Notes under the pieces: generated by a model | Told to the model about the DNA's origin: nothing | Database searches by the model: none | The model's input: only the letters and a program-made list of their open reading frames with translations | Made by a program: the position numbers and the translations under genes | NCBI GenBank assembly: GCA_036374135.1 | Contig: DASUUK010000097.1 | Location: forward strand, 1 to 38,959 | Direction: 5' to 3' | DNA length: 38,959 nucleotides | Source: Euzebyales bacterium | GTDB lineage: Bacteria; Actinomycetota; Nitriliruptoria; Euzebyales; JAHELV01 | Shown here: positions 17,446 through 36,352 of the stretch, piece by piece | How the letters are laid out: the number at the start of each line of letters is the position of its first letter | Numbering within the stretch: position 1 is the stretch's first letter

Positions 17446-18282
17446 TCAGCTGGTGGCGTCACCGCTGACATCGCTCGACGCCTCCCCCGCGCCGTCAGAC
17501 GCGGCGGCGCTGCCGCTCGCGGCCGTGGAACCCGCCGCGGTCTCCGTCTCCGCCGTCTCGGCGCTCGGCGTCTCGATGCCGAGCTTGGAGCGGATCTCCG
17601 ACAGACGGGCTGCCGCCTGGCTGGCGGCGGCGGCCTGCTCGACCTCGAGCATGCGCCCCTGCACCGATTCACGCTCCAGCTCGGTCGTGCCCTGCGCACG
17701 CGCCAGCCGCGTCTCGATCTTGCTGCGGACCTCGTCGAGCGTCGGAACGTCCTGGCCGACCTCTGCGTTCATGGTCTCCATGGCGCGGTTCATCTGCTCG
17801 GCCATCTTCGCCTGGTCGAGCTGGCTGAGCAGCTTCTGGCGCTCGGCGACCTTGGCCTGCAGCTGCTGCGCATTCTGCGCAACAGCGGCCTTGGCCTGCT
17901 CGGTGGACTGCGTGGCCCGCAGCACCATCGCCTGGAGCGTGTCGACCTCCTGCTCCTTGGCGATCAGCTGGTTGGCGAAGGCCTCGGCCGTCTGGGTGAG
18001 CTCCACGACGCGCTTGTCGTCACCGCTCTGCTCGGCCTCGGACGCCATCAGCACCGCCTGCTGGGTGTTGCGGTTGAGCTTCTCGAGGTCCTCGAGCGCA
18101 CGGTCGAGGTCCATCTGCGACTTCTTCTGGTTGGCGATGACGCTGGCGGCCGTCTCGCGCAGCCGGCGGTGCTGGCTGCGAGCCTCGGCGATGGCCTGTT
18201 CGATCTGGATCTTGGGATCGGCGACCTCTTCGAACTTTCCCGTCAGCAACGCCTTCAGGTAGTTCCAGAACCGTGAGAACAT
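17446..18282 (-). CDS. pspA: Phage shock protein A / IM30 family
   Basis: A 278-residue PspA homologue, a peripheral membrane ESCRT-III-like protein that stabilises the inner membrane under stress. The N-terminal amphipathic helix (MFSRFWNYLKALLTG) is followed by the conserved PKIQIEQAIAEA segment and long coiled coils to about residue 230. The last 45 residues are an Ala/Ser/Thr/Glu low-complexity tail absent from classical PspA. AAGGAAG lies about 10 bases upstream of ATG 18282. Upstream lies a gene for an unknown membrane protein on the same strand; downstream is the ADP-ribosylglycohydrolase gene. Confidence 0.95.
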   Translation of the reverse strand: MFSRFWNYLKALLTGKFEEVADPKIQIEQAIAEARSQHRRLRETAASVIANQKKSQMDLDRALEDLEKLNRNTQQAVLMASEAEQSGDDKRVVELTQTAEAFANQLIAKEQEVDTLQAMVLRATQSTEQAKAAVAQNAQQLQAKVAERQKLLSQLDQAKMAEQMNRAMETMNAEVGQDVPTLDEVRSKIETRLARAQGTTELERESVQGRMLEVEQAAAASQAAARLSEIRSKLGIETPSAETAETETAAGSTAASGSAAASDGAGEASSDVSGDATS

Positions 18283-18318
18283 GTCAGGGGTCTTCCTTCT
18301 CAGTGCGGCGTGACCGCC

Positions 18319-18324
18319 AGCATA
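18319..18324 (-). promoter_or_regulatory. Possible -10 element for pspA
   Basis: On the minus strand TATGCT lies 36 bases before the pspA start, preceded by a weak -35 match (CGGACG, 17 bases further up). The same hexamer is seen ahead of the pseudokinase gene at 36247. Position and match to TATAAT (4 of 6) are reasonable but unproven. Confidence 0.3.
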
Positions 18325-18348
18325 GGCAACCGGCCCGCCAGCGTCCGG

Positions 18349-19128
18349 TCACATCGCCGAGACACCACGGGCCGTCAACCCGGCCGTCTCCTCGAGCCCA
18401 CGCCGCAGCGCCTCCATCTCTGTGACCAGCGACTCGACATCGCCGTCGAGCGCGCCCACCTCGACCGGATCACCGACGCGCAGGCCCACCTCGACCGCGC
18501 TGGCGACGGTCTCATCGAGCCGCGCGTCGAGCAGCCGCAGACGCTCACGGACATCGATGGCCGTGGCCTCGATGCGACGGTACGCCTGGATCTGCGAGCG
18601 CACCGAGGTCGCCACGCGCTCGTCGCCGCCGGCGTCGGCGAGCCTGCGCTCGAGCTGATCGATCGGATCGAATCGCCCGAGCGCGAGCTCGAGCTGCTGA
18701 CCGTGGTTGGCGATGCGCCAGCTCTCGTTCACCGCCCCGGCGACCCGCTCACCCATCTCGGCCAGCCGATCGCGCAGCGGACCCTGGGGCGTCGACTCGA
18801 CCGCTGCATCGAACCGCTGCTCCGCGTGCAGCGCCTCGCGAACGTACCCGCGCCATGGATCGTGGAGGCGCTGCGGATCGATCAGGACATCGGCCGTGCG
18901 AGGGTTCCTCGGCATGCGTGCCAGCACCCAGCCGCCGTACGCCACGGCGCCGAGCACGGCTGCAGGCAGCGACAGACCCCACAGCAGCACGCCGGCGGCT
19001 GTTCCCGCGCCAGCCGTGATTATCGACGACGGCGCCGCGATCGCCTGCGCAGTCTGACGGGTGAAGAAGCGGTCGCGGAAGCTCGCCCGCGGGAGCATCC
19101 GACGCTTCTGGCGGAGTGGCGGTGGCAT
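18349..19128 (-). CDS. PspA-neighbour membrane protein, function unknown
   Basis: A 259-residue protein. After a basic start come two closely spaced hydrophobic segments (about residues 35-66: IITAGAGTAAGVLLWGL and LPAAVLGAVAYGGWVLA), then a cytoplasmic-looking helical domain with RNPRTADVLIDPQRLHDPW, PLRDRLAEMGERV and WRIANHGQQLELAL, ending in coiled-coil-like heptads. I believe similar proteins sit next to pspA in other actinobacteria, so it may be a membrane partner of PspA, but this is inference. It lies 66 bp upstream of pspA on the same strand. ATG 19128 is used; an in-frame ATG ten codons later is possible. Confidence 0.82.
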   Translation of the reverse strand: MPPPLRQKRRMLPRASFRDRFFTRQTAQAIAAPSSIITAGAGTAAGVLLWGLSLPAAVLGAVAYGGWVLARMPRNPRTADVLIDPQRLHDPWRGYVREALHAEQRFDAAVESTPQGPLRDRLAEMGERVAGAVNESWRIANHGQQLELALGRFDPIDQLERRLADAGGDERVATSVRSQIQAYRRIEATAIDVRERLRLLDARLDETVASAVEVGLRVGDPVEVGALDGDVESLVTEMEALRRGLEETAGLTARGVSAM

Positions 19129-19197
19129 CGACGCTGCCTTCGGTCGGCCGGTGGTGCACGCCCAGTGTGCCCGCAGGAGCCGGGTGTGGGCACCCTC

Positions 19198-19344
19198 CTA
19201 CACGAGCTGGGCGAGGTGGTGCTCGGCTCCGGTCGTCAGACGATCGAGCAATGTCGGCTCGTCGAACATCCGCGCACGCACCTCCATCGCCGCGAGCACG
19301 AGGACCACGGCGAGGAGCAGCGCGAGGAGCCGACGCACGAGCAT
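19198..19344 (-). CDS. Tiny single-pass membrane protein candidate
   Basis: A 48-codon frame with ATG 19344 encodes a basic start followed by one hydrophobic helix (LLALLLAVVLVLAAM) and a short charged tail. An ATG 39 bases upstream is also in frame. It is on the same strand, 69 bp upstream of the PspA-neighbour gene. Its size and lack of a recognisable family make it tentative. The 305 bases up to the next gene at 19650 otherwise show no gene I can support. Confidence 0.4.
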   Translation of the reverse strand: MLVRRLLALLLAVVLVLAAMEVRARMFDEPTLLDRLTTGAEHHLAQLV

Positions 19345-19649
19345 TGCAGGCAGCGTAGCCAACGCGCCGGCACGTGACCGCACATGGCGGCGGTAACCCC
19401 GCCGTGTTGCCGGCGGCAGCGGCCCGAGGCCGACCCAACGTGATACGCGAACTACTCTTCGCTCGCGTCACGCCGGGCGATCCAGTACGCTGCTGCGAAC
19501 CGCTCGCCCTGCACATGCTGGTGATGTAGCGTCGGTCGCGATGCCGAGCCGCTGCGGGGCCGAGCCCAGGCCCGACGCCGCCACGGGTGTTCCAGGGGGT
19601 CACAGCACCGGTCAGTCACTGCAGGCTCGTCGATCACAGGTGTCAATGC

Positions 19650-21890
19650 ATGGCAGAGGTTGGTGTGTGGACCGTCCCGGGCTACGTCGTCCATGAGCGA
19701 CTGGACGCCGGGCTGGTCAGCGCCACCTACCTGGCCTCACGCGCCTCGGACGGCTACCCGGTCCTCCTGCAGGTCGTCTCCGAGGAGTTCTCCGATCCCG
19801 ACTCCGCCGACCAGTTCTTCACGACGCTCGAGCGGGTCGCTGAACTGGACCACCCGGTCATCCCCAAGGTCCGCGACATGGGCCAGGCCGACGGACTGCT
19901 GTACGCCATCACGAGCGCGACCGACGGCCGCCCCCTGGCCGTGGCGCTCGGCGAGGTCGACGCGCTCCCGCTCGACGACGCGTTGGCCGGGTGCACCGAG
20001 CTCGCCGATGGGCTGGACGCGATGGCGGCTGTCGGGCTCGTCCACGGTGCGCTGAGCCCGAAGACGATCTGGCTCAACGACCGCAGCCGCACGCCGTCCG
20101 GCCCGCGCATGTCACTGCACGGATTCGGCACGCTGCCGCTGCGCACGTCCGCCGTGCGCCAGACGAACGCGCCACCGCCCGCGGACCTGCTCTACACGGC
20201 GCCGGAGCAGGTGCATGGGACACCGGTCGACGAGCGCACGGACCAGTACGGGCTCGCGTGTGCCGCCGTGCACTGCCTGACCGGCCGCCCGCCGTTCGAT
20301 CGCGCGACCATCGGCGCGTTGTTCGACGCGCACGCCCACGATGACCCGTCGACGCAGCTGCTGCGTGATGCCGGCTGGCTGCCTCCCAAGGTGGCCGAAG
20401 GCCTGGCGCACGGGCTGTCGAAGGACCCCAGCGATCGGTTCGCCACGTGCACCGCGCTGACGACGGCCATCGGCGGTGTGTCCAGGCACTCGTGGAGCTG
20501 GATGCTCGACCGTGACGATACGGCGTCCGGTGCGAACGGCCCGCGCGACGACAGCGCCGCAGCGGCCGTGCGCGACGGAAGCCTGGGGGCCGCCGTGGCG
20601 GTCGGCGATCCGTCGACCGGCACGGCGCGGGCGGATGCGCCACGGCGCGGACCCGGATCGCAGCGACGTCGCCGCCGCGCGAGGCTCTGGCGGGGCGCCG
20701 CCGCCTTCGTGTTGCTCGTCGTCGCTGCCGCGGCTGCCGTCGTCGTCGGCCTACCGATGCTCACAGGCGGAGGCGAGTCGGGGCCGGGGATCACCTCGGC
20801 GGGACAACAGCTCGACGTCGACGCCCCCGAGGTCGCAGCGTCGTGGAACGAGTCGGTGGCGGCCGACACCATCACCGCGCTCGTGCCTGCCGACGAGCAG
20901 ATCATCGGCGTCTCGGGCGAAGCGGTGACCAGCGTCGATCAGGCGACGGGGCGCCCGGTGTGGAAGGCGTCCGTGAACGGCGAGGTCCGCGAACTGTCGG
21001 AGTTCGGGCCGATGGCGATCGTCCGGACCGACGATGGGTTCTACGGCCTCGACGTCATCGACGGTGACGTGGTCTGGGAGGCGTCGGCCGCCGATCTGCC
21101 CGCCATCGACACCTTCATCACGGCGCGCGGGCGCATGTTCGCCGCCGGCCGCGACGAGCAGGGACAGTTGCTGCTGCACGCCCTGGATCCCCAGTCGGGC
21201 GAACGTGGCTGGACGATCGAGACATCGACGACGGGTGCCGCCGCGAGCGCCGCCGGCGACGCTGCGGACGACCAGCCGGGTGACGCCAGCGAGGCTGACG
21301 CCACCACGCTGCTCGCGTTCGACGGGAGCACACAGGGACTGCCGTCGCTGTACGTGACCGACGGCGCGCGGCTCGAGGCGTTCGACGTCACGACCCGCGA
21401 GCTGCGCTGGGACGTCGACCTCGACGACCTGCAGCCGACGTCCATGATCGCGGTGGATGGCGCCGTGCTCGTCGTCGGCGCCAACGGCGACGTGTGCCGG
21501 TACGACGCGGACGACGGTCAGACCGGCTGGTCATCGTGCGCCCAACTCGAGCACGACGACGTCCCCGCGACCATCACGCAGGTCAGCGAGAGCCAGGTGA
21601 TCATCTGCAGCCCCAGCGAGATGGTGTCGATCGACTACGCGAGCGGCACACCGACGTGGCGGATCGTCTCGGAGGAGCCGCTGCGCCAGGCCATCACCAC
21701 GAACGGCACCGCCGCCTTCATGGCCACGGCTGACGGCACCGTGGCGGCGATCGCGCTCGACGACGGGACGACGCAGTGGCAGTCGGGGCCGTTCGACAGC
21801 GTCAGCGCGATGGCGGCGACCGACGAGGCCGTGTTCGTGACCACTGCCGGCGGACGGATGGCACGGCTGGAGGCGGCCGCAGAGACCTGA
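19650..21890 (+). CDS. Membrane pseudokinase with extracellular PQQ-type beta-propeller
   Basis: A 746-residue protein with Hanks-type kinase fold, one transmembrane helix (about 350-370) and a C-terminal PQQ-like propeller. The catalytic residues are replaced: the VAIK Lys is Q41 (VLLQVV), HRD is H132-G133-A134, the loop Asn is T139, and DFG is G158-F159-G160. Structural motifs APEQ (184-187) and DQYGLAC (198-204) are kept. The propeller repeats read DQATGRPVWK, DVIDGDVVWE, YASGTPTWR and ALDDGTTQW. The layout resembles AfsK- or PknD-like sensor kinases, but phosphotransfer is very unlikely. It may signal by binding. An Ala/Asp/Ser-rich insert interrupts the propeller near residue 535. The start ATG 19650 has ACAGG upstream. 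It is convergent with the AAA gene. Confidence 0.9.
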   Translation: MAEVGVWTVPGYVVHERLDAGLVSATYLASRASDGYPVLLQVVSEEFSDPDSADQFFTTLERVAELDHPVIPKVRDMGQADGLLYAITSATDGRPLAVALGEVDALPLDDALAGCTELADGLDAMAAVGLVHGALSPKTIWLNDRSRTPSGPRMSLHGFGTLPLRTSAVRQTNAPPPADLLYTAPEQVHGTPVDERTDQYGLACAAVHCLTGRPPFDRATIGALFDAHAHDDPSTQLLRDAGWLPPKVAEGLAHGLSKDPSDRFATCTALTTAIGGVSRHSWSWMLDRDDTASGANGPRDDSAAAAVRDGSLGAAVAVGDPSTGTARADAPRRGPGSQRRRRRARLWRGAAAFVLLVVAAAAAVVVGLPMLTGGGESGPGITSAGQQLDVDAPEVAASWNESVAADTITALVPADEQIIGVSGEAVTSVDQATGRPVWKASVNGEVRELSEFGPMAIVRTDDGFYGLDVIDGDVVWEASAADLPAIDTFITARGRMFAAGRDEQGQLLLHALDPQSGERGWTIETSTTGAAASAAGDAADDQPGDASEADATTLLAFDGSTQGLPSLYVTDGARLEAFDVTTRELRWDVDLDDLQPTSMIAVDGAVLVVGANGDVCRYDADDGQTGWSSCAQLEHDDVPATITQVSESQVIICSPSEMVSIDYASGTPTWRIVSEEPLRQAITTNGTAAFMATADGTVAAIALDDGTTQWQSGPFDSVSAMAATDEAVFVTTAGGRMARLEAAAET

Positions 21891-21928: not shown

Positions 21929-23362
21929 TCAACCCGCAGCGGCCTCTGACAGAGTGCCGCGTTGCGGGATGTCATCGGCCGTGAGGCGCATCAGGTCCTC
22001 GCGTGACACGTCACCCATGCGCACCAACCGGCTTGCCTGCTGCGCACACGCCTCCTCGAACAGGTTGCGGGCCAGCCGCCCGTTGCCGAAGCCGGGTCCC
22101 CGGGGCACGGCGTCGAAGTGCGATGTCAACCGGGCGCGCGCCCCGTCGGTGAGCTCGTAGTGGTGCGTCCCGGCGAGGATCTCGAAGATCTGGAGGAGCT
22201 CGCTGGTGTCGTAGTCGGGGAAGTGGATCACGCGGGGAAAGCGCGACCGCAGACCGGGGTTGGAGCCGATGAAGTCCTCCATCTCGGCGGGGTAGCCGGC
22301 CACGATGAGCACCAACCGCTCACGGCGGTCCTCCATCAGCTTCACGAGCGTGTCCACGGCCTCGCGTCCGAAGTCGCGGTCGTCGCCGCGGACCAGCGCG
22401 TACGCCTCGTCGATCAGCAGCACCCCGCCCGTCGCCGCGTTGACGACCTCGGTCACCCGGGCGGCGGTCTGCCCGATGAAGCCGGCGACCAGTGCGGCAC
22501 GGTCGGTCTCGACCAGGTGCCCGCGCCCCACGACGCCCAACGCCCGGTACAGCTGCGCGACCAGCCGTGCCACCGTCGTCTTGCCGGTGCCGGGATTGCC
22601 GGTGAAGACGAGGTGGCGGCTCTGCGGCACGACCGGCAGATCGCGCTCGCGACGCAGACGTTCGACGGTGATGAGGTCGGCGACCCTGCGGATCTCGCGC
22701 TTGACGGGTTCCAGACCGACCAGCTGGTCGAGCTCCTCGAACAGTTCCGCGGCGGACTTCTGCGGATCCTGTGGGGTGCGCACCGTGCCGATCGCGGTCG
22801 CCGGCTCACCGGTGTCCCGTTCCGCCGTCGGGTCACCGCCGTCCGCCGCGGGGCGCTCGGCAGCGGGCAGCAGCCGCAGCAGCATGCTGCGGAGCTCCTC
22901 GACGGCCGCCAGCTCGAGGCGTCCCGTGTATCCGTCGAGCGTCACGGCCGCGTGCGCCACCTCCATCGCCTGCTCGTAGTACGCGCGGGAGCGCCGACCC
23001 CTGTCGCGCAGATCGGCGTCACGCAGCAGGCTGAACACGGGCGACGGCGTCGTGAGGCTCTGCGTCCCGGACTCGAGCAGCATGGCGCGGCGGCGTTCGA
23101 CCGGTGTCGCGGCCGCCACGCGCGGATCGTCGAGCTCGCCGAAGCACGTGATCATCGCCAGCAGTTCGACGTCCGTGACGATGCCGTCCGCGGCCACGAG
23201 GCCGGCGACCAGCGTCGAGGCGTCGCGGAGCACGTCCTGCCGGATCTCGTGGGTCGGGAGCCCGGCCGAGGTGGCGAGCCGTTCGACCTCGCCGGCGACG
23301 GTGTCGACGAACCGGCTGACGCGCGAAGCGAGCACGGACGACGTCGTCACGTCGCCGCCCAC
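21929..23362 (-). CDS. CbbX/SpoVK-like AAA+ ATPase with N-terminal TerB-like domain
   Basis: A 477-residue protein. Residues about 40-170 look like a TerB-type helical domain (AGLVAADGIVTDVELLA; AAVTLDGYTGRLELAAVEEL). From about 210 comes a CbbX/CfxQ-type AAA+ domain: LVGLEPVKREIRRVADLI, Walker A GNPGTGKTTVA, Walker B GVLLIDEAYAL, the sensor region LIVAGYP, and FPDYDTSELLQIF in the lid. Members remodel proteins (Rubisco activases) or act in secretion systems; the role here is unknown. The start is GTG 23362; a GTG four codons later is equally possible. It faces the pseudokinase/propeller gene (38 bp) and diverges from the gamma-glutamyltransferase gene. Confidence 0.9.
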   Translation of the reverse strand: MGGDVTTSSVLASRVSRFVDTVAGEVERLATSAGLPTHEIRQDVLRDASTLVAGLVAADGIVTDVELLAMITCFGELDDPRVAAATPVERRRAMLLESGTQSLTTPSPVFSLLRDADLRDRGRRSRAYYEQAMEVAHAAVTLDGYTGRLELAAVEELRSMLLRLLPAAERPAADGGDPTAERDTGEPATAIGTVRTPQDPQKSAAELFEELDQLVGLEPVKREIRRVADLITVERLRRERDLPVVPQSRHLVFTGNPGTGKTTVARLVAQLYRALGVVGRGHLVETDRAALVAGFIGQTAARVTEVVNAATGGVLLIDEAYALVRGDDRDFGREAVDTLVKLMEDRRERLVLIVAGYPAEMEDFIGSNPGLRSRFPRVIHFPDYDTSELLQIFEILAGTHHYELTDGARARLTSHFDAVPRGPGFGNGRLARNLFEEACAQQASRLVRMGDVSREDLMRLTADDIPQRGTLSEAAAG

Positions 23363-30133: not shown

Positions 30134-30616
30134 TCAGGTCGCCAGGACGTCCTCGATCATGGCCTCGGTGTCCTCCTCCGACTTGGAGATGGCGGCGGAC
30201 AGCTCGGAGACCAGGATCTGGCGGGACTTGGTCAGCATCCGCTTCTCGCCGGCCGACAGGCCCTTGTCGCGCTCGCGGATCGACAGGTTGCGGACCACCT
30301 CGGCGACCTGGAAGATGTCGCCCGACTTGAGCTTCTCGTAGTTCGCCTTGAACCGGCGCGACCAGTTGGTCGGCATCGAGAAGTCGCGGTCGCGCAGGAC
30401 CTCCCAGACGGCGTCGACCTCCTTGCTCGTACACACGTTGCGCAGGCCGACCTCGTCGGTGGCGTCCGCCGGCACCATGAGTGTGAGATCACCGTAGGTG
30501 AGGCGGAGCACGAGGTAGTCACGCTCCTGGCCCTCCATCATCCGCGTCTCCTGGCGCTCGATGACCGCAGCGCCATGGTGCGGATAGACCACGGTGTCCC
30601 CAACCTGATATGCCAT
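30134..30616 (-). CDS. carD: CarD/CdnL-type RNA-polymerase-binding regulator
   Basis: A 160-residue CarD-family protein, which binds the RNA polymerase beta subunit and stabilises open promoter complexes, acting on rRNA and many housekeeping promoters. The N-terminal RNAP-interaction domain is recognisable (FKVGDTVVYPHHG-like start, here AYQVGDTVVYPHHGAAVIE, then LTYGDLTLMVPADATDEVGLR). The C-terminal helical DNA-binding domain carries the conserved Trp (NWSRRFKANYEKLKSGD) and LSAGEKRMLTKSRQIL. ATG 30616 has GAGGACG upstream. The next gene, ispF, follows after 14 bp; disA lies upstream on the same strand, 171 bp away with a promoter candidate in between. Confidence 0.97.
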   Translation of the reverse strand: MAYQVGDTVVYPHHGAAVIERQETRMMEGQERDYLVLRLTYGDLTLMVPADATDEVGLRNVCTSKEVDAVWEVLRDRDFSMPTNWSRRFKANYEKLKSGDIFQVAEVVRNLSIRERDKGLSAGEKRMLTKSRQILVSELSAAISKSEEDTEAMIEDVLAT

Positions 30617-30732
30617 AGGCGTTCGTCCTCGTCGACAACGTGACGGCCAGCCCACCCCGACCGCCGGTCGCGTGGAGGTCTTCGTCGTTCGCATCTGGGA
30701 TGGCGCGGCCAGCTACCGCGCCCGGTCATCCA

Positions 30733-30741
30733 ATGATAGCA
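30733..30741 (-). promoter_or_regulatory. Extended -10 promoter candidate for carD
   Basis: On the minus strand TGC-TATCAT matches an extended -10 element (TGN-TATAAT, 5 of 6 in the hexamer), in the intergenic region upstream of carD. The inferred start near 30726 would give a leader of about 110 bases. No good -35 is seen, as expected for an extended -10 promoter. Confidence 0.42.
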
Positions 30742-30787
30742 GGAGGCCATGGCCGCCCGATCCGGCCATATGGTGCAAAGGTGCGGG

Positions 30788-31858
30788 TCAGGCGTACCGT
30801 TCGAGGATCGACGACTCGGCGAGCCTGGCCAGACCCTCCTTGATGGCACGCGCCCGGGTCACCCCGACACCCTCCACCTCATCGAGGTCCTCGAGGCTGG
30901 CCTCCATCAGGCGCTGCAGCGACCGGTAGCGCTCGACCAGCTTGTTGACGATCGAGTCGGGCAGGCGCGGAACACGGGAGAGCAGGCGGTAGCCGCGTGG
31001 CGCGACCGCACGATCCATGTCGTCGCCGTTGATGTCATATCCCAGCAGCTCGGCGAGGATCGACAGGTCGAGCAGTTCCTGTGCGTCGAGCTCGTCGAGG
31101 CCGTCGAGCGTCTTCTCGAGCTTGTGACGCCGGTCGACGATGTAGTCGCGCACGACCAGTTCGCGCTCGTCGTCGACGCGCGCCATGAGCTCGTTGTGCT
31201 GCAGCTGCAGCAGCCGGCCGTCCGTGCCAAGCTCCAGCACGTAGGCCCCGATCTCGTCGGAGATGCGTCGTACCATCTCCGCGCGCTGGAGGACGACGAG
31301 GACGTCGCGCAGCGTCACGACGTTCTCGATCTCCAAGGCCGACAGCGACGCCGACACCTCGTCGAGGCGCACCCGGTACTTCTCCAGCGTCGAGAGCGCC
31401 TGGTTGCCGCGGAACAGCAACGAGCTCGGCTCCTCGAACACGTGCTTGTAGTCGTCGAGGTACAGGCTCACGATCTGCATGGACTCCGACACGCTGACGA
31501 CGGGCACACCGGTCTGCTTCGCAGTGCGCTCGGCAGTGCGGTGCCTGGTCCCGGTCTCCGACGTGGCGATCGACGGATCGGGCACGAGATGCACGTTGGC
31601 GTACAGGATGTAGTCGACGTCATCGTCGACGACGATCGCGCCATCCATCTTGGCGAGCTCGGACAGCCGCTGAGCGGTGAACTTGGTCTCCATCTTGAAG
31701 CCGCCCGAGACCAACGGCTGGACGTCCTCAGAGGACCCCATGACGATGAGCGCGCCCTTGCCGGACTTGATCACGCGGTCGATCCCCTCGCGCAGCACGG
31801 TCCCCGGCGCGAGCTTGTGCAGCACGTCGCGGAGCCGTTCTTCGAGGGTTCCCGCCAC
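30788..31858 (-). CDS. disA: DNA integrity scanning protein DisA, diadenylate cyclase
   Basis: A 356-residue DisA that makes the second messenger c-di-AMP from two ATP. The N-terminal DAC domain has the active-site D72-G73-A74 (KMDGAIVVDDD) and the ATP-binding R105-H106-R107 (GTRHRTAERT). A helical linker (SVSESMQIVSLYLDDYKH) and a C-terminal helix-hairpin-helix DNA-binding domain (LEDLDEVEGVGVTRARAI) follow. It forms octamers that sense branched DNA in known cases. The start is GTG 31858 because GAAGGAAG lies just upstream and the family N-terminus begins there. The IspD-like gene lies 141 bp upstream on the same strand. Confidence 0.97.
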   Translation of the reverse strand: MAGTLEERLRDVLHKLAPGTVLREGIDRVIKSGKGALIVMGSSEDVQPLVSGGFKMETKFTAQRLSELAKMDGAIVVDDDVDYILYANVHLVPDPSIATSETGTRHRTAERTAKQTGVPVVSVSESMQIVSLYLDDYKHVFEEPSSLLFRGNQALSTLEKYRVRLDEVSASLSALEIENVVTLRDVLVVLQRAEMVRRISDEIGAYVLELGTDGRLLQLQHNELMARVDDERELVVRDYIVDRRHKLEKTLDGLDELDAQELLDLSILAELLGYDINGDDMDRAVAPRGYRLLSRVPRLPDSIVNKLVERYRSLQRLMEASLEDLDEVEGVGVTRARAIKEGLARLAESSILERYA

Positions 31859-31999
31859 ATGGCTTCCTTCGTTGTGATGCCGGCACGGCGCTCCCAAGCG
31901 TAGACGCTCGACGGCGGGACAAGACATCGACCGCGCGGCGCCCAATGATGGTCCTCCTCGAGCAGGACGACCGACGGCCCGGCGATGCGTCGGTGGCGC

Positions 32000-32604: not shown

Positions 32605-33330
32605 GTGGGCGCTGCGGCGATCCTGCTCGCCGGGGGCAGTGGCACCCGGATGCGGCGGGCCGACACCAAGGTCTTCGCGACCGTGGGCGGACGACCGCTG
32701 CTGCAGTGGTCCCTGAGGGCGTTCGCCGACTGTGAGGCGATCGACCGCGTCGTGCTGGTCATCCGCGACGAGGACCGCCCGCGCATCGACGCCCTGCTCC
32801 GCGACACCGGCCTCGCCGCCAGCGTGCGCACCGTGGTCGGGGGTGCGAACCGGCAGGCGAGCGAGCGCGCCGGGCTCGAGGCGATTGCCGGGGACATCGA
32901 CAGCGGCGCCGTCGACACCGTCGCCATCCATGACAGCGCCCGTCCCTTCGTCACCACGGGGCTCATCGGCCGCGTCGTTGCATCCGCACGTCGGGTGGGT
33001 GGCGCCGTGCCGGTCCTCGAGCTCGGCGACGGCGTCTACCGCGCGACGCCCGATGGGCGCCTCGTTCTCCAGGCGCGCGATCTGCACCGGGTCCAGACGC
33101 CGCAGGCGTTCCGGTCCCGGGCGCTGCTCGAGGCGTATCGGGCAGCGTCGCACCAGGGGTTCGCGGGTGTCGACACCGTGGAGACCGTCGCCCGCTACAC
33201 CGACCTGCAGATCGCCGCCGAGCCCGGCGACACCGACAACCTCAAGGTGACCTTCGCGGCCGATCTCGCAACCGCGGAACGCATCGCCGCCGAGCGCGAA
33301 CGGGGCGTCAGCCGCCACCCGGCGCGATGA
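32605..33330 (+). CDS. ispD: 2-C-methyl-D-erythritol 4-phosphate cytidylyltransferase (atypical arm)
   Basis: A 241-residue IspD of the MEP pathway, which makes CDP-ME from MEP and CTP. The nucleotide loop LLAGGSGTRMRRADTKVF keeps the catalytic Arg and Lys; HDSARPFV, RVQTPQAF and DTDNLKVT (active-site Lys) are intact. The region that usually reads PVxDTxK...VDR reads PVLELGDGVYRAT...LQARDL, so the residues equivalent to E. coli Thr140 and Arg157, which come from the neighbouring subunit, are missing. The start GTG 32605 has a strong GGAGGAC. It diverges from the IspD-like gene and overlaps the convergent pseudokinase gene by 23 bp at its end. Confidence 0.92.
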   Translation: MGAAAILLAGGSGTRMRRADTKVFATVGGRPLLQWSLRAFADCEAIDRVVLVIRDEDRPRIDALLRDTGLAASVRTVVGGANRQASERAGLEAIAGDIDSGAVDTVAIHDSARPFVTTGLIGRVVASARRVGGAVPVLELGDGVYRATPDGRLVLQARDLHRVQTPQAFRSRALLEAYRAASHQGFAGVDTVETVARYTDLQIAAEPGDTDNLKVTFAADLATAERIAAERERGVSRHPAR

Positions 33331-34396
33331 CCGCCATGAGCACCGGCGAGCTCGACGCGGCGGCGTCGGGCGAGCCGATCACATCGAGCTCGAGTGCCGC
33401 GAGAAGGCCGAGCACGACCAGCAGCAGAACGATCAGCACGATCCGCAACGTGCGCCGGGGAGCGGGTTCGAACTCGGCGACGTCGTCGGCCGCCGAGACG
33501 GCGACCGGACGCGCCGACGACACCTCGCGCGCCGGGCGCCGGCGACCGCACCGTCCGGCCTCGAGCAGCAGGGTCCGGCAGTTGTCGTACCGCTCTTCGG
33601 GATCCTTGGACAGCGCGCGGGCGAAGAGCGCGTCCCAGCGGTCGTCGAGATCCTGCCGCAGCTCGGTGATCGGCCGCGCCTGGCCGAACAGGTGCGCACC
33701 GAACAGATCGTTGTTGGTCTCACCCTGGTACGGCGTGGTCGCTGTCAGTGCGGTGTACAGGATGCAGGCCAGCGCGTACTGGTCCGATGCGGGACCCGCC
33801 GGCTGACCCTGCAGTTGCTCGGGAGCGACGAACAGCAGGTCGGGAGCCGCGGGGTCGTCCTCGACCCCCTGGAGCACCGGTCCCAGCAGATGGCTCGTCC
33901 CGAAGCCTGTCACGGCCGCGCTGGGTGGCACCCGGCTGCCCGGGCGACGTCTGATCCACACCGACGGCAGTCCGACAGTGCCGTGCACGATGCCATGGTG
34001 ATGGATCGCGTCGAGCGCCTCGGCCAACTGCCCACCCAGCCGCAGCGCGTCGTCGATGTCGAGCGGCGCCGCCTCCAGCAGCAGGTCGCCCAGAGACACC
34101 CCGTCCCGCCAGGTGGTCGCCGCGTACGGAGTGCCTCCGACGGTGCCCTGGTCGACGACGGTCAGCAGGTGCGGGTGCGCCACAGCGGACACGCGGCGGT
34201 TCACGTGCAGGAACCCCTTCACCGCACGTGCGTGCCCGGCAACCGCGTCGTCGACGACGCGGAGCGCCACCGGGGTGCCCACGTCGTCGATCGCCCGGTA
34301 GGTGGTGGTCGTCAGGTCGGACCCGACCACCGACTGCAGGGTGTACGTACCGAGCGACGTCGGTTCCGGCAGCGGCTGCTGTGGCACGGCGCTCAC
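33308..34396 (-). CDS. Membrane pseudokinase (short C-terminal tail)
   Basis: A 362-residue Hanks-type kinase homologue that lacks the catalytic residues: the VAIK Lys is R46 (VALRVV), HRD is H138-G139-T140, the loop Asn is S145, and DFG is G164-F165-G166. Structural motifs remain: APEQL (191-195), SDQYALAC (204-211) and the SKDPEERY-type helix. An Arg/Pro/Ser-rich linker leads to one transmembrane helix (RIVLIVLLLVVLGLLAALEL, about 315-335) and a short extracytoplasmic Ser/Ala tail. The start is GTG 34396, with GGAGGGGA six bases upstream. It lies 213 bp after the related pseudokinase gene and its end overlaps ispD by 23 bp. No ATP-dependent activity is expected; a docking role is inferred. 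Confidence 0.9.
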   Translation of the reverse strand: MSAVPQQPLPEPTSLGTYTLQSVVGSDLTTTTYRAIDDVGTPVALRVVDDAVAGHARAVKGFLHVNRRVSAVAHPHLLTVVDQGTVGGTPYAATTWRDGVSLGDLLLEAAPLDIDDALRLGGQLAEALDAIHHHGIVHGTVGLPSVWIRRRPGSRVPPSAAVTGFGTSHLLGPVLQGVEDDPAAPDLLFVAPEQLQGQPAGPASDQYALACILYTALTATTPYQGETNNDLFGAHLFGQARPITELRQDLDDRWDALFARALSKDPEERYDNCRTLLLEAGRCGRRRPAREVSSARPVAVSAADDVAEFEPAPRRTLRIVLIVLLLVVLGLLAALELDVIGSPDAAASSSPVLMAVIAPGGG

Positions 34397-34609
34397 GCGG
34401 TCCCCTCCGACCTCTCCGACCTCGGGGTGCAGCCGCGGGCACACGACGGGGACCGCCCGCCGAGGTCACGGCGTCGCCTCACGGACGTGTCCCCGTCGGG
34501 CGGCGCGACGGCGCTCATCCGCCGTACCGTTGTCACCCCGTCCACCGACCCTCCCTCAGGGTTGCATCCCTACGACCACCACGACCCGTTCCGCTCGTGG
34601 ACGTGGCGG

Positions 34610-36247
34610 TCATGACAACAGAACCCACACCACGACAGCTGTCACGACCATGACGACGAAGAACATCGCGACCAGCGCTCCCGAGGGGCGCCACACTTCC
34701 GACGGTTCGAGCTCGGGCCGGTCGCGGAGCACATCCGAGAGCAGTGGGACGTCGTCGTTGGCGCCCGTGGTGCCGGTCTTGACATCCCGCACGTCGGCCG
34801 ACCCTGGCCGTGCGCCGGATTCGTTCCCAGTTGTAGGGTACGTCATGTCAGGCGTGGACCGGACATGAGTCGAAGAGTTGTCATCACCTCGTGACGGGCT
34901 ACCCGTCCTTGCGGACATCAGACGCCGACCATTGGACAGGGCGTCGTCCGCGTCCGCCGGCTCGTCGCCACCGCTGCGAGCGGGCAGCGCGATGATCCGT
35001 TGCCCGTCCGCGGTGTAGCTGATCCCCGCGTCGTCGGCGGCGTCCGCCGGAGCCGACGCGGCGCGGGTGACGGGCAGAGCCGGTCCGTCCGCGTCGTACT
35101 CGCGGTCGTCGCCACCGGGCGACGTCGGCACGTCGTCAGCCGGGGGCGGGGACACCGACGGATCGGCCCCATCGGAGGCGGACGGCGGCCCCACCGACTG
35201 CGCCGCATCGTCAGCCGGCGGCGGCCACAGGTCGTCGTCCCGGCCGTCCGTTGCCGTCGGTGGTGGGTCGGTGTCGTGCCGGGAGCTCAACGAGGGGTCG
35301 CCAGCAGGCGCACCCGCCTCCGGCTCGACACCCTCGGCTGCTTCGAGATCGTGCACCCAGGGGTGCGCCACCGTCTCCCGGCGCCGCACGTCGGCGCGTC
35401 TCCGGTTCTCGGCGCTCCGCCTGGCGCGCTCCAGATCGGCGACGAGTTGTCCGCACGTCGCGTAGCGGTCACGCGGTTCCTTCGCCAGTGCCTTCGCGAT
35501 CGGGCCGCCGGCCAGAGAAGGGACGAGCGTCGGTTCGACGAACAGGTGTGCACCGAACAGGCCGCCGACGGAGTTGCGCACGAACGGCGGCGAACCGGTC
35601 ACGGCGTGGACGAACGCGCACGCCATGGCGTACTGGTCCGCCCAGGCCGTCAACGGCTGGCTGCGCAACTGCTCCGGTGCGACGTACTGGAGCTCGTCGA
35701 CGGAGCGCAACTGCCTGCGGTCGCGGCGCAGGCGCAGCTCGAGGAGCGCGCCGATCCCGAAGCCGGTCAGGTTGACCTGGGGTGGCACGCCATGGGCGGT
35801 CGGCACGATGCGCAATGTGGTGGGGTTGACCGCACCGTGATTCAGACTGGCGTGATGGCTGGCGTCGAGGACGTCCGCGACCTGGGAGAACAGCTCGAGT
35901 GCCGCGTCGATGTCCAACGGGCCCCGCTCATCGATGAACTCCCCGAGCGGCACGGTGTCCACCGACGACGCGACGAGATATCCCCGGCCGCGGTGCTCGC
36001 CGACCTCCTCGATCCGCGGGGCGTGCAGGTGCTCGAAGGTCAGCGCTGCGGCGGCCCTGCGCAGGAACCGCCGGTACAGCTCGCGGTCGTCGCCGCCCGT
36101 GGCGCACAGGTCAGCGGCGACGACCCGCAGCACGAGCAGACGATCGTCGCGGGGATCGACCGCCGTGTAGATCGTGCTGACGAGATCGCTCCTGATGGCG
36201 TCGCGCACGTTCAGACCTGCGAACGTCGTCCCCGTCAGCTCGCCCAT
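34610..36247 (-). CDS. Tail-anchored membrane pseudokinase
   Basis: A 545-residue Hanks-type kinase homologue without catalytic residues: R41 replaces the VAIK Lys (LVLRVV), HRD is H137-G138-A139, the loop Asn is T144, and DFG is G162-F163-G164. APEQL (190-194) and ADQYAMAC (203-210) are intact. Residues about 310-515 form a long Asp/Pro/Ser/Thr-rich linker of low complexity, and the protein ends in one hydrophobic helix (ALVAMFFVVMVVTAVVVWVLL) with almost nothing after it, so it is C-tail anchored with the fold in the cytoplasm. The segment LFGAHLFVEP is shared with the neighbouring pseudokinase (LFGAHLFGQA). ATG 36247 has GGGGAG five bases upstream. It lies downstream of the mnh genes on the same strand. 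Confidence 0.9.
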   Translation of the reverse strand: MGELTGTTFAGLNVRDAIRSDLVSTIYTAVDPRDDRLLVLRVVAADLCATGGDDRELYRRFLRRAAAALTFEHLHAPRIEEVGEHRGRGYLVASSVDTVPLGEFIDERGPLDIDAALELFSQVADVLDASHHASLNHGAVNPTTLRIVPTAHGVPPQVNLTGFGIGALLELRLRRDRRQLRSVDELQYVAPEQLRSQPLTAWADQYAMACAFVHAVTGSPPFVRNSVGGLFGAHLFVEPTLVPSLAGGPIAKALAKEPRDRYATCGQLVADLERARRSAENRRRADVRRRETVAHPWVHDLEAAEGVEPEAGAPAGDPSLSSRHDTDPPPTATDGRDDDLWPPPADDAAQSVGPPSASDGADPSVSPPPADDVPTSPGGDDREYDADGPALPVTRAASAPADAADDAGISYTADGQRIIALPARSGGDEPADADDALSNGRRLMSARTGSPSRGDDNSSTHVRSTPDMTYPTTGNESGARPGSADVRDVKTGTTGANDDVPLLSDVLRDRPELEPSEVWRPSGALVAMFFVVMVVTAVVVWVLLS

Positions 36248-36301
36248 CGCTCCCCAGCGGCTCACCCGCCCTGTTGTGTCGCACGCACCGATCGCCCCGC
36301 C

Positions 36302-36307
36302 AGCATA
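36302..36307 (-). promoter_or_regulatory. Possible -10 element for the tail-anchored pseudokinase gene
   Basis: TATGCT on the minus strand lies 54 bases before the ATG at 36247; TGGTCC 17 bases upstream is a weak -35 (3 of 6) and falls inside the hairpin at 36313-36329. If real, the gene is transcribed separately from the mnh genes. Confidence 0.28.
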
Positions 36308-36312
36308 CGCAA

Positions 36313-36329
36313 GGTCCGCTGGGCGGACC
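36313..36329 (-). terminator. Terminator candidate after the mnh genes
   Basis: GGTCCGC and GCGGACC form a perfect 7-bp stem with a 3-base loop, 24 bases after the mnhG stop in the direction of transcription. Only two T residues follow. It would separate the mnh operon from the pseudokinase gene. Confidence 0.5.
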
Positions 36330-36352
36330 ATGCGGCCGCGGGGACGGCGGTA

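Follow-up and report, generated by a model that had tools for sequence, protein, structure and literature searches.

By its sequence and predicted structure, the product of the gene at positions 19650–21890 (+) of the window, by which we mean the whole 38,959-nucleotide stretch of Euzebyales bacterium DNA analysed here, is a protein that keeps a Hanks-type kinase fold without the catalytic residues and carries it in front of a membrane helix and a propeller. This protein belongs to a family of single origin, seen in one genus, consisting mostly of membrane proteins and divided into eight orthogroups. We consider it probable that in this family the kinase fold serves for docking without ATP and the propeller binds in the envelope.

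The open frame of the target starts with an ATG at 19650 and ends with a stop codon at 21888–21890; its third-position GC content is 0.89 and the product has 746 amino acids, with Pfam matches to Pkinase (4.9e-10) and PQQ_2 (2.1e-22). All features of the target given below are on the forward strand. The kinase-fold domain comprises residues 8–282 (19671–20495). Its AlphaFold2 model, built with 26 sequences, had a pLDDT of 92.9 and a pTM of 0.92, and was similar to PknA, PknB and PknF with Z of 28 to 29.5; a profile match to PknE was also obtained (E 4e-58). Helix G is present in the model (helix 214–223).

The preliminary description of this DNA placed Q41 (19770–19772), H132-G133-A134 (20043–20051), T139 (20064–20066) and G158-F159-G160 (20121–20129) at the catalytic positions, and all of them were confirmed in the translation. 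When the target was aligned with the nine paralogues of its own genome that keep the lysine, these replacements fell in the VAIK, HRD, Asn and DFG columns. Also as described, the protein retains APEQ from residue 184 (the APE motif, residues 184–186, at 20199–20207) and DQYGLAC from residue 198 (DQY with the αF Asp, residues 198–200, at 20241–20249). In addition to what had been described, the glycine-rich loop (LDAGLVSAT) is lost, its residues 19–24 (DAGLVS, 19704–19721) being aligned with GRGG of the paralogues, and the αC Glu is replaced (T59). None of the four residues β3 Lys, HRD Asp, Asn and DFG Asp is left, and the sequence thus bears out the proposal that the output domain is dead.

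The membrane helix at about residues 350–368 (20697–20753; mean hydropathy 2.8) is preceded by a basic run, QRRRRRARLWR, so that according to the positive-inside rule the kinase fold should be cytoplasmic and the propeller outside. The extracytoplasmic propeller, residues 391–746 (20820–21887), was modelled by AlphaFold2 with a pLDDT of 88.6, and its best structural match was BamB 8orr (Foldseek E 1.8e-17, TM 0.73), at 15% identity. The designed eight-bladed propellers Ika8 and Tako8 were also high among the structure matches, and the predicted propeller of the target is therefore likely eight-bladed. A hairpin at 21495–21539 contains Cys616 and Cys630; all 14 propellers compared have this pair, which likely forms a disulfide and fits the outside location of the domain. 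With TIGR03300 (BamB) the propeller scored 70.5 bits (about 1e-19), under the cut-off of 285.2, and with the quinoprotein dehydrogenase family TIGR03075 28 bits against a cut-off of 480, which is below the score set for PQQ-dependent dehydrogenases. The outside domain can be described as a predicted BamB-like propeller; any PQQ binding or sensing by it is hypothetical.

The propeller could be aligned in five of the eight orthogroups, and in the propeller tree each of these five formed one side of a branch. Pairwise distances of the kinase and propeller parts were correlated in 14 full-length proteins (Mantel r 0.87; none of 2000 permutations was as high). Both results indicate that the kinase–propeller architecture was inherited as a unit.

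Two siblings of the target are found further on in the window, the nearer beginning 11.4 kb past the target end. The sibling at 33308–34444 (−), of orthogroup b, has the kinase fold and a membrane helix and no propeller; that at 34610–36331 (−), of orthogroup c, has the kinase fold, a long acidic linker and a C-terminal membrane helix. The HG/GFG pattern ascribed to both was found again, as HGT/GFG in the first and HGA/GFG in the second. That the 39 kb contain no active kinase is true as far as the Pfam matches of the genome show, and it says little, since nine of the 17 PF00069 matches in the host genome (3.98 Mb, 115 contigs) retain the Lys and the HxD Asp. Seven others lack Lys, HRD Asp and Asn, namely the three of the window together with L009, L010, L011 and L013, and four of these seven carry a PQQ_2 propeller; the remaining match is a short partial one and was left out of the alignment. 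A share of 7 in 17 is high but has precedents, as some bacterial kinomes contain up to 67% pseudokinases (PMC12599244; here and below we refer to the part of that paper available to us). The host genome also encodes a different, half-degenerate kinase (L012:2795–4375), which retains HRD but has DPS in the DFG position and Arg where the αC Glu would be.

The family is known from four genomes of the genus, all fragmented assemblies (115 to 240 contigs), in which 26 copies with usable domains were found, seven each in G000, G002 and G003 and five in G001; at least two of the copies reach a contig end. They form eight orthogroups: a, which includes the target, b and c with the two siblings, and d and e are present in all four genomes, f in three, g in two with a broken copy in one more, and h in the host genome only. 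Lys, HRD Asp and Asn are absent from all 26 copies and the DFG Asp from 25; the recurrence of the same losses in 26 copies from four genomes means that the pattern of the target is not due to chance. Duplication into the eight orthogroups before the genus split is part of the explanation we favour. Synonymous sites between the four genomes are likely saturated. The single member of orthogroup h (L011:3530–4453) has HGA with an intact DFG, a deletion in helix G, a long branch and no propeller. The broken copy of orthogroup g (L061:3205–6016, genome G001), near obg-sized and proB-sized genes, is split into several frames, which may be either true decay or an assembly error.

A phylogeny of the kinase-fold domains had been set beforehand as the test that could refute a dedicated family. 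It was found that the losses were not separate, and the idea that the three kinase folds of the window form one family held, with a single origin and an extent of seven genes in this genome. The first tree comprised 48 active rows and 27 rows of pseudokinases, which stand for 26 genes because one gene spans two stretches and was entered twice; a single branch divided the two sets (100/99). The second tree had 90 rows, 16 pseudokinases and 74 active kinases; among the latter were the closest ones in the phylum and three of AfsK type. The pseudokinases had been thinned to 16, and L012 and active rows more than 80% identical to another were omitted. Here again one branch separated the two groups (100/100, in 100% of 200 bootstrap trees). 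A third tree, made without the 36 catalytic-motif columns (16 + 72 rows, two further long active rows being dropped, so 88 in all; 235 columns), gave 100/100 once more, and the grouping is therefore not due to the shared loss itself. In this tree, L098 and L072, both active and both from the same order, were the rows nearest to the pseudokinase clade; the trees are unrooted, and it is unsure where the clade attaches among the active kinases.

As far as seen, the family is confined to one genus. A family-profile search of 66 genomes of the class, with up to 35 candidates scored per genome, gave 26 matches of at least 253 bits, every one of them from the four genomes that represent the genus; the next match was an active kinase with 230.8 bits. 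Among 396 genomes of the phylum (39 of the class) the best outside match, 248.6 bits, was also active. Lys, HRD and DFG are intact in the 53 kinase domains at all 51 outside loci from both searches (L089–L139). The other 62 genomes of the class and the 357 genomes of other classes thus gave no family member; in the latter, only five candidates were scored per genome, and a distant member could have escaped notice where kinases are numerous. In 13 genomes of one large-genome genus, where up to 150 candidates were scored, nothing exceeded 243 bits, judged by score alone. Searches for other pseudokinases with PQQ propellers gave none among 16 PQQ_2 frames of at least about 560 amino acids in 60 genomes, the three with a kinase all being active, and at 26 out-of-genus loci from the propeller searches (L144–L147, L173–L194) all eight kinase-bearing loci were active. 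Outside the genus, propellers near that of the target occur on active AfsK-type kinases of one large-genome genus (E down to 1e-24).

The 26 aligned domains share the residues of the fold skeleton: H132, P185, E186, D198, Q199 and Y200 are present in all of them, and R263 in 25 of 25, one row being cut short. Helix G is kept in 25 of 26 rows. The replacement residues are conserved as well, with G133 in 25 of 26, A134 in 21, Thr (21) or Ser (5) at position 139 and Gly (21) or Ala (4) at position 158, where the remaining copy has Asp; this conservation points to selection on the new residues. The β3 site is occupied by Arg in 20, Gln in five and Leu in one of the 26, and one position of the glycine loop is Asp in 22 of 26. 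The four copies without this Asp are the four target orthologues, all with Gln at β3. A pairing of the loop Asp with the β3 Arg inside the empty pocket is only hinted at by the alignment, because their joint loss is a single change on the tree.

Outside the pocket, the sites that are conserved in the family and differ from the 74 active kinases are D179 (at the P+1 Thr), F225 (αG) and H208 (αF). The P+1 loop and αG are docking sites of kinases for substrates or regulators. A docking role of αG is also described in PMC12599244. These family-specific sites on the substrate-docking face point to a putative non-catalytic docking module; it is from conservation alone that the face is deduced. In the explanation we favour, the outside propeller would bind an envelope ligand or protein, and this binding would change the state or the clustering of the receptor. 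The cytoplasmic kinase fold, which would no longer use ATP, would act as a docking platform through the face formed by the P+1 loop, αF and αG, and the docked partner would most likely be one of the cell's own active Ser/Thr kinases, or the substrates of such a kinase. The best reading of the sequences is that these proteins would signal through bound partners. The Arg in most members and the intact DFG of L011 count against a dead docking domain, and the small basis of four fragmented assemblies counts against the explanation as a whole. A further reading, tentative and somewhat unlikely, is a layer made by this lineage, in which six or seven dead receptors per cell would act on a few active kinases through the shared P+1/αF/αG face, most of these pseudokinases would carry an envelope sensor or membrane anchor of their own, and the ATP pocket would be closed by the Asp–Arg pair, lost in the branch of the target.

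The gene places were compared in the four genomes. Target orthologues lie at the same place in all three other genomes of the genus, where the order pspA, membrane-protein gene, target, AAA gene is kept within contig reach. The siblings, 11 kb on, are situated between ispD and the Mrp antiporter, an arrangement that is likewise kept in the other three genomes within contig reach. The places of the other paralogues are also conserved, scattered and beside housekeeping genes: dnaE and a Na/Pi symporter for d, penicillin acylase for e, secE-nusG-rplK-rplA for f, obg-proB for g, and a LuxR-type regulator with a DUF3105 gene for h. Neighbours were named by Pfam at one or two loci per orthogroup and by the length of the gene elsewhere; for secE and rplK, length and position were the only guides. 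Across the neighbourhoods of all eight orthogroups there was no partner gene common to the family; nothing points to one partner, which counts against the docking explanation.

Several other observations were made around the target. The AAA+ protein encoded at 21929–23362 (−) is convergent with the target and adjoins it in all four genomes; it is nearest to SpoVK and CbbX, below their cut-offs, with an N-terminal stretch that looks TerB-like by eye. A link to type VII secretion was rejected, as this protein is nearer to SpoVK/CbbX than to EccA (227.9 against a cut-off of 466.65), and no type VII secretion genes were found in the scanned neighbourhoods of the target or its paralogues. We also rejected anti-phage defence, since the PADLOC matches (PD-T4-6 and others) reflect the general kinase fold and nothing else in the scanned neighbourhood fits. 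At 17446–19128 (−) there are pspA and a membrane-protein gene without Pfam or NCBIfam match, a pair kept in the two genomes whose contigs extend there; the second gene is in what we take to be the position of pspM in mycobacteria. In three of the four genomes, two extra genes separate the target from the membrane-protein gene beside it (L048:4484–7346; L045:18696–19721; L050:1437–4159), coding for 341 amino acids without Pfam match and for about 595 amino acids with SBP_bac_11 and VWA domains. The window genome has neither at 19129–19649, and the second has just 31–34% identical paralogues elsewhere. The best conserved genes of the stretch, at 30134–31945 (−), are carD-like and disA-like by eye, with 84–97% identity within the genus.

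The main rival, which we regard as unlikely, is that the protein acts not as a sensor but as an assembly factor of the envelope in the manner of EssB/YukC, a structural scaffold that would bind proteins through its kinase fold at one end and its propeller at the other. EssB/YukC is itself a membrane pseudokinase scaffold (PMC12599244), the fold of the propeller is most like that of BamB, which is a scaffold for proteins and whose NCBIfam model matched at 1e-19, though far under the cut-off, and two siblings lack an outside domain. However, no secretion or assembly genes are common to the gene places, and eight diverged and scattered orthogroups resemble a set of receptors more than one machine. 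That the fold still binds nucleotide or performs another reaction, with Arg in place of Lys as proposed for ActPs2/DYD or in the manner of SelO or SidJ, seems to us quite improbable. The prevalence of the β3 Arg and the loop Asp would suit nucleotide binding, as would the DFG kept in one member, and an Arg at the β3 Lys site can accompany ATP binding in other pseudokinases (PMC12599244). The target, however, has Gln instead of Arg and no Asp at the loop column; the metal ligands are missing, since none of the 26 copies has the HRD Asp or the Asn and all but one lack the DFG Asp, whereas SidJ makes renewed use of its Lys and metal Asp and SelO keeps its Lys (PMC12599244). Decay of functionless duplicates is very improbable. 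It would account for the split copy of orthogroup g and for the faster evolution of the target, whose kinase part is 52–60% identical to its orthologues compared with 77–80% for the adjoining AAA gene, but it is largely refuted by the 26 aligned copies that are open through the domain, by replacement residues conserved across orthogroups, by the cysteine pair and by the kept gene order. That at least three separate kinase clades lost their activity independently is scarcely credible; the trees, also without the catalytic columns, refute it, and no point in its support was found.

Few functions are known for bacterial pseudokinases, and ancient, expanded pseudokinases with active paralogues in one cell offer a natural series on what becomes of the kinase fold after catalysis is lost. 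The family poses a compact question, whether receptors without catalysis modulate the active kinases. If the docking explanation were true, sensing of the outside by kinase-shaped receptors in bacteria would not be limited to enzymes.

The closest described group is ActPs1, which comes from a classification of bacterial Ser/Thr kinases into 42 families and comprises mainly actinobacterial pseudokinases with substitutions in all three catalytic motifs, many of them with a C-terminal PQQ_2 (PMC12599244). The target likewise has all three canonical catalytic residues substituted and a PQQ_2 C-terminal to the pseudokinase. Helix G is missing from about 60% of ActPs1 (PMC12599244), whereas it is kept in our family; this is not a strict criterion, and membership is not excluded by it. 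The available part of that paper mentions no lineage-bound expansion to six or seven genes per genome for ActPs1. We found no further relevant literature on ActPs1, and none, judged by title, on kinases of Nitriliruptorales. Compared by description alone, the family may be a branch of ActPs1.

The layout had been likened to AfsK/PknD. The order of domains (kinase, helix, PQQ propeller) is indeed the same as in AfsK-type proteins and the propeller is related, but kinship of the kinase parts was not upheld by the tree: the outside proteins, labelled AfsK from their layout only, are active in eight of eight cases, and the kinase domains of three of them lie far from the pseudokinase clade. The tree gives no support for AfsK-type kinases as ancestors of the kinase part, the two forming no common clade. 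With NCBIfam NF053615 (AfsK, cut-off 1300 bits) the target was unlisted at E 0.001, and the best of the scanned members, L009, reached 62.7 bits. The AfsK-like layout is, on the sequences, convergent or re-shuffled, with the likeness lying in the layout and perhaps the propeller.

EssB/YukC, which is not known to carry a propeller, resembles the target in its cytoplasmic pseudokinase, membrane helix and outside part. It is a scaffold of type VII secretion and differs in its motifs Ytfvlapd and TRG (PMC12599244) and in its type VII partners, none of which were seen here. EssB was absent among the structure matches listed by Foldseek and VIA-align, which were filled by active kinases and are uninformative on pseudokinases. 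The MviN pseudokinase domain (ActPs3), part of a flippase-like protein, is another actinobacterial degenerate kinase fold at the membrane. It has Lsidhpsr for HRD (PMC12599244) and a deletion in the activation loop. BamB shares the propeller fold with the target, in which this domain, of low identity and under the NCBIfam cut-off, is joined to a helix and a kinase fold, and the Hanks-type kinases PknA, PknB, PknE and PknF share the kinase fold, from which the catalytic residues are absent in the target. The family is a lineage-bound form of an already described kind, the membrane pseudokinase with a propeller, with a putative function in signalling.
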